64,000 nucleotides of DNA from Hydractinia symbiolongicarpus. Lineage: Eukaryota > Cnidaria > Hydrozoa > Anthoathecata > Hydractiniidae. Position 1 is the stretch's first letter, and every line of letters begins with the position of its first letter. The position numbers and the translations under genes were made by a program. The notes beneath the pieces are model-generated. The model saw only the letters and a list, made by a program, of their open reading frames with translations. It had not been told where the DNA came from and did not search any database. Below are positions 23,941-41,040 of the stretch, piece by piece. The stretch spans positions 4,030,001 through 4,094,000 of the forward strand of contig NC_079883.1 in NCBI RefSeq assembly GCF_029227915.1, in the 5' to 3' direction.

Positions 23941-24113
23941 TATTTATTATTATTATTATTATTATTATTATTATTATTATTATTATTATTATTATTATTA
24001 TTATTATTATTATTATTATTATTATTATTATTATTATTATTATTATTATTATTATTATTATTATTATTATTATTATTATTATTATTATTATTATTATTAT
24101 TATTATTATTATA
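23941..24113 (+). repeat. (ATT)n microsatellite, LINE tail and recombinase-element target
   Basis: About 58 near-perfect ATT units. It is the 3' tail of the LINE and directly abuts the left end of the first recombinase/helicase element. Confidence 0.95.
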
Positions 24114-24758
24114 TAGCGTATGAAATTATAATGGTCCGTGATTCTATGTGCGATTATGTTACACCCTAAACACATTAAATACTTTACATGTTCCAATTTT
24201 TTAAAAAAGAACCATTTTTAAGGAACTTGGTGTTCTTTAACAACTTATTAAAACATTGTTATAAAAGCGGAATGTATTGTTCTATTGTTACTCACAAGAC
24301 AAGAACGTGTCGTTCCCATAGGGAATTTGATGGAATTTATGTGACGGTATATATCGTTCCACTCTATTTGTTCCGTTGAATTCTTTTATATATCATAACG
24401 ATAATATATGCGAAATGATTATCTTGAGGAATAGTTATTTAATTATGAATACTCTGCAGTCTAATTTATATTGTGCCACTTGAAATAATTCCGTTTTCGC
24501 TGCTACCTTAACTCTGCTATGGAGAGCGTCCTTCATTATAAAAAGGAATTGTTTTAATGAGAAGTTTCTCAACTAATACTTTGTATACGAAGTAAAGTAT
24601 AAGGTAAGTTGTTCAAACTTTAAATTTATAGTTAATAGGATTCTTTTTTTATTCAAATGAATTCTTTTTTTTATCCTACTTTCTATGCTTTGTTAAAAAC
24701 TAATATTGTTATAAACTTTCTATAAATTTTGTTTCTAGAGAACTTTAAAGAAATCGGA

Positions 24759-26405
24759 ATGACAAAACGAGTCTTGCAAAAGCCTGCGTGGAAAGAGGCA
24801 TTGGGAGCCTCAATGAGATCGAAAAGGCTTAAGTTAATGCCTGATAAAGATAACCGCTTTTGTTGTCCTGTGGCTGATTGTGACAGCGAGTCGTATGGAA
24901 GTAAAAGAGGGTGTAGAAAACATGTCTATAACCGTCATGGATGGTTTTATTATTTCGATAAAAGACCGAATATCGACGAAGTACTTCCCCACTTCAGTAC
25001 AAGAAATCGCATAAAAGATCCCCAAAGAAAGCGCGCATCCACATTTTCAATGCCGTCTTTTGCTAAAACATGTAATTTGGCAGTTGCATTTAGGACATGG
25101 TTAAAAAGTCCAGGTGGTGGTGGTAAAGATCATTCTCAGGCCGATCAAATAACTTGTAAAGTTTTAAAGTATGCCAAATATTGCTGCGAGGATTCTCCTT
25201 CGGTATGGGAAGTACCATTCCCTGTTATCGACTACTGTGTTGGCTCTATTAATATGCTTTCTGATTTTGTAGATTTTTTGAGAGACCAATGGAAGGTTGG
25301 CTTCTCAGGAATAATTGGCTACATGAATGCTATTGGGCACATGCTTGATTACAGACGAAGCACAGGTACGACTGAAAAAAATTTGTCGGTATTTGTTGCT
25401 GCAGAGATTTATTTGCACCGTGTTAAGAAATTCCTCCTTCGTAAAATGAAAGCTGAATGGAAGTGTATCTTAAGTGTTGAATATCTAAACAGTATAGACT
25501 GTTGGGCGACACTATATGATTTACAAAAGGTGATACCATACCATAGTGAAAAATATAAACAAATTGTGTTAAATGCTAAAAACGCAAGTGCATGTGTCGC
25601 AGCACACGATTTATCATTTTCGACTTCCTTCATAGTAGCTGTATTATTTTTAATGGTGAAGGCTTCAAGACCCATGACGTATCAAACTCTTACAGTAACA
25701 ATGATTAAAGGCGTGAAAGAGGATGGTTTTATAGATCAGAATGTCTTTAAAACTGCGGAGAAATACGGATTTGACTCTCTTTATTTTTCCATAGATGTAC
25801 TCACACTAATAAACGAATACATTGACAATGTACGACGAAGATTGAACCCCACCAACGATTATCTACTAGTGTGTCGAAATGGTAAGCAGTTGACGCGTAT
25901 TTCGGACGTATTCGGTAGAATTGTTTATCAAGCAATTGGTAAGTATATAAATCCTACACGATATAGGCAAATCATCGAAACCGAAAGTGTTGCACACTTA
26001 GAAACAAAAGAACAAGCAATTCTTTCTCAAGATCAAAAACACACGTCGCAGGTAGCTAAAGTTCATTACCAGAAGACTGAATCGCGCAATATAGCTGCAA
26101 AAGCCAGGTTATGTATGGATAAATTACGAGATCAAACAACGTGTACTTTAACTGTAAGCGAAATCAATAGTAACACCAAAAATGTGAAAACGTCTGGAAG
26201 TACTTTGGAACACGAAACACCTGTTCAAACGAGACAGAAAAAAGTTAGTTTTAGTGCCATGGAGGACAAGTTTTTACAAGCTGGGCTACAAAAATATGGC
26301 AATGCAAAATGGACTTCCATTCTCGCAGATCCTAACTACTCCTTTCATTGTAGCCGTAAAGCTAGTACATTGGCGGTTAGAGCGAAGACAAAACAATTTA
26401 TATAA
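24759..26405 (+). CDS. C2H2 / tyrosine recombinase / Myb-like protein (copy 1, intact)
   Basis: I start at the ATG at 24759, just after a likely 5'-UTR intron (donor AAG|GTAAGT near 24604, acceptor TTTCTAG at 24738). The protein has 548 residues. Residues about 32-58 are a C2H2 finger (CPVADC...HVYNRH). The middle is a tyrosine recombinase, which cuts and rejoins DNA through a covalent tyrosine: Arg304 (RPMTYQ), Arg401 (NPTRYRQ, Asn in place of the usual His), His428 (KHTSQ) and Tyr437 (VHYQK). The nine-residue His-Tyr step is typical. Residues about 488-540 form a Myb/SANT-like helix set (MEDKFLQAGLQKYGNAKW). It would integrate and excise the element. Its stop lies 39 bp from the end of the convergent small gene. 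Confidence 0.85.
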   Translation: MTKRVLQKPAWKEALGASMRSKRLKLMPDKDNRFCCPVADCDSESYGSKRGCRKHVYNRHGWFYYFDKRPNIDEVLPHFSTRNRIKDPQRKRASTFSMPSFAKTCNLAVAFRTWLKSPGGGGKDHSQADQITCKVLKYAKYCCEDSPSVWEVPFPVIDYCVGSINMLSDFVDFLRDQWKVGFSGIIGYMNAIGHMLDYRRSTGTTEKNLSVFVAAEIYLHRVKKFLLRKMKAEWKCILSVEYLNSIDCWATLYDLQKVIPYHSEKYKQIVLNAKNASACVAAHDLSFSTSFIVAVLFLMVKASRPMTYQTLTVTMIKGVKEDGFIDQNVFKTAEKYGFDSLYFSIDVLTLINEYIDNVRRRLNPTNDYLLVCRNGKQLTRISDVFGRIVYQAIGKYINPTRYRQIIETESVAHLETKEQAILSQDQKHTSQVAKVHYQKTESRNIAAKARLCMDKLRDQTTCTLTVSEINSNTKNVKTSGSTLEHETPVQTRQKKVSFSAMEDKFLQAGLQKYGNAKWTSILADPNYSFHCSRKASTLAVRAKTKQFI

Positions 26406-39800: not shown

Positions 39801-40978
39801 GCAAAAATACCAACTCTCGTAAATTTGGCGTAATTTCGTTGGCGATTGCTTTGTTTTTCAACGAGCAATAGAGATAGCTTTTCACCGAACAACAGTAAAC
39901 GTATGTGTATCTGCTTTCTCCTATTTTTTGTATACACCTCCATTGCACAGTCCAAAGCTATTCCTCTCCATCATCCTTCGAACTATATCCACGGATTGAC
40001 AAAGTTTGTTAGTTGGCTTAACGGGAATAGTTACTTCTGTGCCTATGCGTGTAACAATGTAAAAACATGTTTTAACTTCTACAAAAAACTTAGTCTTATT
40101 ATTGGAGAAGTAAGTAAATTTGTTCGTGGCAACTTACCTTCCGATTTATCAATTACTTTTAAATCAAGCGATGTAAATCTGATTTCGGATAAACCACGAA
40201 TTACATCTTGATATACCTCTTTATCAATATTTTTTGTTAGAATTAACTGACAGGGTTTCATCGAGTACTGTTCGCTTTCCATTACAGCAACGTGGTCAAG
40301 TTGAACACCTTCATCTCTAGCTGCACTCCTAATCATTGTGCGATGGGATATCTCAACTATCCGTTTTGCTTCTTCCCTATTGTGGTCTTTCAAGACTTGG
40401 TATAACGATCCTGAGAATGCTTGCAATGCACTGGTTTTGCCTACAAATATCAAATGTGGCGTAAAATATTCGAAAAACATTGACAGTATTTCAAGTACTA
40501 AAAGGTTCAAGTATTTACCTCTTGTCTGTATAGCATTGCACGTTGTTAAATTCAACCAGGCTTGCATAAAAGACTTCGACAAATTTGTTTCAAATTGACT
40601 TAAGGTACAGTTTGGCAAGTCGCACGCGATCCAGAAAGAAATGCCAGGAAATGTTTCAGGCGCATTTGCGCCGTTTCTGTTATCACCTTCACTGCTAGAG
40701 TCGGCTTCTTCTTCTTCCTCCCCTTCATTCCTCATCGACTTTCTCTTACGAGGTCTGGCCATATAGGTAATACAAGAAAAAAAACAGGATACTTGTTCGT
40801 TGCTAAGCAATATGTTCTCCATCTGCATTCTCTTGCCCCAAATGACCTCGCGGGCATCAACATCACTTCCCCACATCGCACGAACGGCTACTACCTGATA
40901 TTTTCTTATTACCGGTTGGACGATGCATGCCTTCAGGGCGCGTTTCAAAACTTCACTTCGCAGTTGCCTGTTAGCCAT
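36884..40978 (-). pseudogene. Spliced SF3 helicase (copy 2), Walker A frameshift
   Basis: Same exon layout as copy 1. The last exon (36884 to about 37788) is open throughout, including the 53 bp lost in copy 1, and ends in the acidic tail with FIDLVSDDE and VICISSDEE. The first exons (40978-40079) are also open as one frame, with an 8-base T-run that keeps the start exon in frame with the MARPRKRK segment. In the fourth exon, near 38377, one base is missing right at the Lys codon of the Walker A loop, so this copy cannot make a working ATPase. An R-to-K and other small changes occur elsewhere. Splice donors and acceptors are kept. Confidence 0.83.
38541..39583 (+). repeat. Minisatellite array B (copy 2)
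   Basis: About ten units of the GTTACAA array found at 29809-31604, again inside the large helicase intron. Shorter than copy 1 by roughly seven units. Confidence 0.92.
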
Positions 40979-41040
40979 GTTCTGCTAAGTAATACAAACG
41001 AATGCTGTAGCGGAACAAAAATAATCTCCTATGGTTATAT

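Follow-up and report, generated by a model that had tools for sequence, protein, structure and literature searches.

Do a recombinase gene and a helicase gene that lie side by side in the genome of the hydrozoan Hydractinia symbiolongicarpus belong to one mobile element, and could such an element replicate itself? The question is raised by a window of 64,000 bp (RefSeq assembly GCF_029227915.1, contig NC_079883.1, positions 4,030,001 to 4,094,000), in which two tandem units each consist of a tyrosine recombinase (YR) gene, an opposed spliced superfamily 3 (SF3) helicase gene and two arrays of a short iterated motif (iterons). We conclude that this is a YR-mobilised DNA element of a new variety equipped with a replication module. 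Each unit probably represents one hydrozoan mobile element of integrative-plasmid type, which the YR would excise and insert as a circle and which the helicase would replicate from the iterons.

Self-BLAST of the window revealed, two short tandem arrays further left aside, one large duplication (24109-33058 versus 33052-41041). Its copies are arranged head-to-tail and abut, the right end of unit 1 joining the left end of unit 2 exactly and without duplicated flanks in between (Table 1). The composition of the two units had been recognized in a first-pass annotation of the sequence and is borne out by self-BLAST, open reading frames (ORFs), the exon model and motif counts; of its proposed span, 24111..41040, the right end holds and the left end had to be shifted to 24109. 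Beyond that annotation, the YR and helicase genes are convergent, array A being located between their 3' ends and array B inside helicase intron 2. The TTATAT core is common to all three junctions and provides short direct repeats (4-6 bp) at the termini as known for Cryptons, which is in part expected from the TTA-rich target, in which pure (TTA)n precedes the element (23944-24112) and (ATT)n follows it (41035-41350). Precise ends, the lack of long terminal repeats and the end-to-end tandem suggest, at the sequence level, a YR-type recombination at a short core, and the junction at 33052 appears to be the same sequence that a circle junction would have. Outside the arrays, the units differ by 20, 14 and 6 mismatches over 2,794, 1,690 and 1,452 bp, respectively, in total 40 mismatches in ca. 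5.9 kb (ca. 0.7%), and by a few gaps, the longest of 53 bp. The tandem pair is therefore recent.

Table 1. Features of the two element units (positions within the window; YR, tyrosine recombinase).
Feature	Position	Strand	Description	Basis
Element unit 1	24109..33051		8,943 bp	self-BLAST and junction sequence
Element unit 2, tandem copy	33052..41040		7,983 bp plus right-hand copy of the 6-bp core	self-BLAST and junction sequence
Left junction, TTATAT core	24109..24114		(TTA)n on outer side	sequence
Unit-unit junction, TTATAT core	33052..33057		within imperfect palindrome, 11 of 16 arm positions	sequence
Right junction, TTATAT core	41035..41040		(ATT)n on outer side	sequence
YR gene, unit 1	24759..26405	+	548 amino acids; zinc-finger-like N-terminus, YR domain at ca. 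residues 115-470, TRF-like Myb C-terminus	
YR ORF, unit 2	33780..35348	+	522 amino acids; in-frame stop upstream of ORF	
Helicase exon 1, unit 1	32156..32780	-	begins at in-frame ATG; start lies further upstream in unit 2 and several relatives	
Helicase exon 2, unit 1	31621..32097	-		
Helicase exon 3, unit 1	29616..29774	-	Walker A GPPDSGKTS	
Helicase exon 4, unit 1	29398..29544	-	Walker B VVFMDEW	
Helicase exon 5, unit 1	29130..29312	-	QKH (motif B', own assignment) and motif C GFFITTN	
Helicase exon 6 region, unit 1	28198..29049	-	frame lost through gap relative to unit 2; acidic tail	
Helicase gene, unit 2	36884..40978	-	exon order as unit 1; frame changes in exon 2 and Walker A	
Iteron array A, unit 1	26907..28110	+	122-bp unit, 9.8 copies; 59 TTGTAAC on + strand	
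Iteron array B, unit 1	29828..31589	-	102-bp unit, 17.4 copies; 80 TTGTAAC on - strand (82 with edge copies)	
Iteron array A, unit 2	35849..36796	+	7.8 copies; 44 TTGTAAC	
Iteron array B, unit 2	38549..39571	-	9.9 copies; 50 TTGTAAC	
Small ORF	26444..26839	-	SUMO-interaction-like stretches; doubtful third gene or alternative last exon	sequence

The YR gene of unit 1 is probably preceded by a spliced 5' untranslated region, the intron of which was read from the sequence. Its modelled product has the YR fold, which supports an assignment to the tyrosine recombinase superfamily, and R314, R411, H438 and Y447 (residue roles as assigned in this analysis) are invariant in the 21 YR relatives. The homolog search returned 666 matching proteins; among the 120 listed, the first position of the HxxR motif is N in 76, as in the window copy, H in 37, T in 4 and S in 2, and was not found in one. 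The named matches among those listed are cnidarian (Hydractinia, Clytia), the best being H. symbiolongicarpus LOC130629800 on a 40.0 Mb contig. Clustering at 90% identity placed 12 sequences from 6 contigs, which may span more than one assembly, under a representative identical to the window YR, and several copies are therefore likely to be present in the genome. Two different YRs (P0006 and P0008, 66% and 62% identical to the query) are each encoded on a contig of 20,938 bp; different YR families may sit side by side.

The helicase model of unit 1 comprises five introns, all of phase 1, and yields a continuous reading of 600 amino acids; all 11 start, donor and acceptor strings searched occur once per unit and in identical order in both. 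Walker A, Walker B, motif B' and motif C follow one another in the order characteristic of SF3 helicases, and the three motifs quoted in the first-pass annotation are found in exons 3 to 5. Among the 38 relatives obtained by homolog search (contig sizes listed for 36), several of which are fragments, Walker A was detected by pattern in 29 and Walker B in 35. Modelling supports an SF3 helicase of the Rep/E1/D5 fold. Pfam produced weak SF3-family matches for the spliced reading, all under the curated cut-offs, and no significant SF3 family for the exons taken singly (DUF5906, E 0.059); a PDB sequence search with the helicase, alone or as a profile, found nothing. An HUH motif (H-hydrophobic-H) is present in none of the 13 helicase N-termini checked. 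Among the matches listed, the named ones again are cnidarian (Hydractinia, Clytia, Rhopilema), the best named pieces being H. symbiolongicarpus LOC130621979 and LOC130641548 on contigs of 28.8 and 36.0 Mb. A second helicase branch (P0146-P0154), on contigs of up to 1.5 Mb, shares 25-37% identity with the Hydractinia copy P0123.

The four arrays contain 233 copies of TTGTAAC versus 4 in the other 47 kb of the window, ca. 0.2 per kb being expected from base composition. The iterons have a single orientation within each array, and arrays A and B are convergent. All 7-mers common to the 122-bp and 102-bp units derive from the iteron and its immediate flanks, and adjacent iterons are spaced by exactly 10 bp in 54-67% of cases, most others by 20, 22, ca. 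50 or 60 bp. Because two arrays that differ in unit length have a single motif in common, spaced at one helical turn, a TTGTAAC-binding protein is presumed, and this pattern, as read from the DNA, would be hard to explain otherwise; candidates are the N-terminal part of the helicase and the Myb domain of the YR. In a tentative alternative, compatible with a single element, the Myb domain would bind the arrays as recombinase arm sites, or they would form a partition or tethering region as in the yeast 2-micron plasmid. It would agree with the TRF-like Myb domain of the YR, with the resemblance of TAAC to the core of Myb sites and with a repeat number that is large for an origin. We nevertheless consider it the less probable function, as the element has its own SF3 protein, SF3 initiators usually act from element-specific binding sites, and the opposed arrays flank the helicase-domain exons.

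A second locus bears on the association of the two genes. The YR that scores best after two Hydractinia entries (P0005, 67% identical) is located on a contig of 24,956 bp, and with helicase exon 1 as query two proteins were found, one from Hydractinia and the other, P0161 (38% identical), again on a contig of 24,956 bp. Because of this identical size, P0005 and P0161 very probably reside on one contig of another species, the YR-helicase pairing thus recurring in a second species at one locus; 6 of the 120 YRs listed are on contigs of 20-30 kb, and for one contig of that size range we estimate the probability of a coincidental match at roughly 5 in 10,000. The first-pass annotation had held that helicase and recombinase occurring apart at other loci would speak against it; what was found is their pairing on this other contig, the only one tied to both genes. 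P0087 and P0154, both on 2,242-bp contigs, were rejected as a chance coincidence, such a contig being too short for both genes. Scans of prokaryote genomes yielded no relatives.

Given the YR fold, the SF3 helicase, the iterons, the precise junction and the pairing at a second locus, the best reading is a single element that combines a recombination module with a replication module. The earlier interpretation is in this respect partly supported: the union of recombinase and helicase gains ground, while replication as a circle retains the status of a proposal. Mechanistically, the YR would excise the element as a circle by recombination between both ends at the short TTATAT core. The SF3 protein, composed of an N-terminal part devoid of the HUH motif and a ring helicase, might load at the TTGTAAC arrays and unwind the DNA, whereupon host polymerases would copy the unwound element. 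Finally, the YR would re-insert the circle at a comparable A+T-rich site, which in this case is a (TTA)n tract, and the precise tandem might arise by insertion beside a resident copy or by insertion of a dimer circle.

Several points weigh against this scenario. The circle and its replication we infer rather than observe directly, and the tandem pair could alternatively stem from unequal exchange or an assembly error. The palindrome at the unit-unit junction is weak and suggestive only, at least 11 matches being found within 6 bp at 138 of 3,000 random points. With Foldseek alone, the YR model had no match at E <=0.001 (XerA, 8.3e-3), Pfam recognised the YR catalytic domain in none of the 21 relatives, and a standard Walker A motif is missing from P0124, the helicase relative that was modelled. 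One of the 16 listed YRs on contigs of at least 20 kb is tied to a helicase contig, and the relatives number 666 for the YR versus 38 for the helicase, so that some elements may possess a YR without a helicase. This gap may reflect the split exons and the more rapid divergence of the helicase, and misses of helicase relatives are expected given a quickly evolving N-terminus and a search that depends on shared words of 5 residues. Moreover, both helicase copies and one of the two YR copies are damaged as read. In this state neither unit can be fully functional: the unit 1 helicase carries a frame change in exon 1 and, compared with unit 2, a 53-bp gap in the last exon, and in unit 2 the YR frame is interrupted by an early stop and the helicase by frame changes, one in exon 2 and one at Walker A. 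The frame changes in exon 1 (unit 1) and exon 2 (unit 2) fall in homopolymer runs and could be sequencing errors; the Walker A change of unit 2 is present also in the public Hydractinia protein P0123.

Instead of a transposon with its own replication module, the locus might contain what is left of an integrated DNA virus (of Polinton-like, adinto-like or small Rep-encoding type) that no longer has capsid or other virion genes but retains integrase and helicase. Viruses and virophages are typical carriers of the SF3 fold, Polinton-like genes occur at 1-8 kb of the same window, and Polinton-like viruses as a group have YRs and SF3 helicases and are found in corals (PMC4642659, PMC12220804). We consider this origin unlikely. 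Neither capsid, polymerase, reverse transcriptase nor HUH nuclease was found in the element, and a Pfam scan of its ORFs gave no match to a capsid protein or packaging ATPase. The longest stop-to-stop ORFs outside the two genes and the arrays that are not antisense to exons extend over 131 (unit 1) and 139 amino acids (unit 2) and therefore leave no room for a capsid module. The viral contigs scanned, at limited sensitivity, yielded no relatives, and the pairing of YR and helicase recurs at the second locus.

A Crypton-like YR transposon that contains or adjoins an unrelated helicase element or host gene would account for the surplus of YR over helicase relatives, and Cryptons have been reported from a cnidarian (PMC3212892). 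Such an accidental neighbourhood is quite improbable, since identical ends enclose both genes in both units, the same iteron is found within the helicase intron and beyond the helicase 3' end, and the second-locus contig very probably carries both genes; furthermore, none of the 21 YRs matches the Crypton-derived DUF3504 at E <=1. An assembly artefact uniting two haplotype copies in tandem would fit the divergence of ca. 0.7%, the different array lengths and the homopolymer indels, but is very unlikely in view of a join that runs exactly from element end to element end without duplicated flanks, and the existence of the element is independent of this question.

Within the element, acidic hydrophobic stretches (IVCLSDDE, IDLVSDDE), which we take to resemble SUMO-interaction motifs, are found in the small ORFs 26444-26839 (-), which is without Pfam match, and 35362-35781 (-) and at the helicase C-terminus. 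A second YR (44122-45360, -; PF00589, E 1.4e-7) and an adjoining ORF with C2H2-like stretches (45608-46327, -) appear to form a different YR element close to the first. The region 1132-6884, with genes for a family-B DNA polymerase and a retrovirus-type integrase and an ORF that weakly matches endonuclease VII, is presumably a Polinton- or adintovirus-like remnant. A retrotransposon reverse transcriptase (RVT_1, E 1.1e-29) is located just left of the element (22480-23736, +), and tandem arrays outside it occupy 11750-12361 (128-bp units) and 13859-14421 (178-bp units).

The chances appear even that these units constitute an undescribed class of eukaryotic element, namely a capsid-less integrating cnidarian plasmid with a YR, its own SF3 initiator and an iteron origin, which would multiply as a replicating circle in the time between insertions. 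The titles and abstract openings surveyed, with most subscription papers and Repbase outside the search, revealed no animal transposon with both a YR and an SF3 helicase. In a review on giant eukaryotic transposons, YRs are confined to the bacterial section and the term SF3 does not appear (PMC6431247); a survey of parvovirus-like sequences in animals reports one cnidarian among 118 species and does not mention a recombinase (PMC5013282). Excision and re-insertion by a YR alone do not raise copy number; if the proposal is correct, multiplication of the transposon would be explained by an initiator and origin-like arrays of its own, and a link between transposons and small DNA viruses with SF3 initiators becomes possible. 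Circles, origin activity and site-specific insertion could be tested in Hydractinia, which is kept as a laboratory animal.

Among known systems, Cryptons (CryptonA in animals) share with the element an own YR and the absence of long terminal repeats, and circle excision has been proposed for them by others (PMC3212892). The animal Cryptons are described there as YR transposons without terminal repeats or a C-terminal domain, the word helicase being absent from that paper (PMC3212892). Their gene content, a YR protein and in some a peptidase or DNA-binding domain, is exceeded here by an SF3 helicase and arrays within the ends; in addition the YR has a Myb domain, and DUF3504 was matched by none of the 21 YRs at E <=1. 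The first-pass contrast with known elements has to be limited with respect to Polinton-like viruses and virophages, which as a group include YR integrases and SF3 helicases (PMC4642659, PMC12220804); these are defined by capsid proteins and a packaging ATPase, none of which was found in the element. DIRS and Ngaro elements are likewise mobilised by a YR, whereas reverse transcriptase is present only outside the element described here. Parvoviruses and papillomaviruses use initiators (NS1, E1) with an SF3 helicase of the same fold; parvovirus NS1/Rep has the HUH motif, which the helicase N-termini checked lack, and the element has no capsid gene. The yeast 2-micron plasmid, a small circular eukaryotic element, likewise has a YR (FLP) and a repeat array; it differs in remaining extrachromosomal and in having no SF3 helicase. 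In design, the element is reminiscent of staphylococcal pathogenicity islands (SaPI) and prokaryotic integrative plasmids, a likeness that is one of organization only, and, if the proposed replication is correct, it would represent an animal counterpart of these bacterial integrative plasmids.
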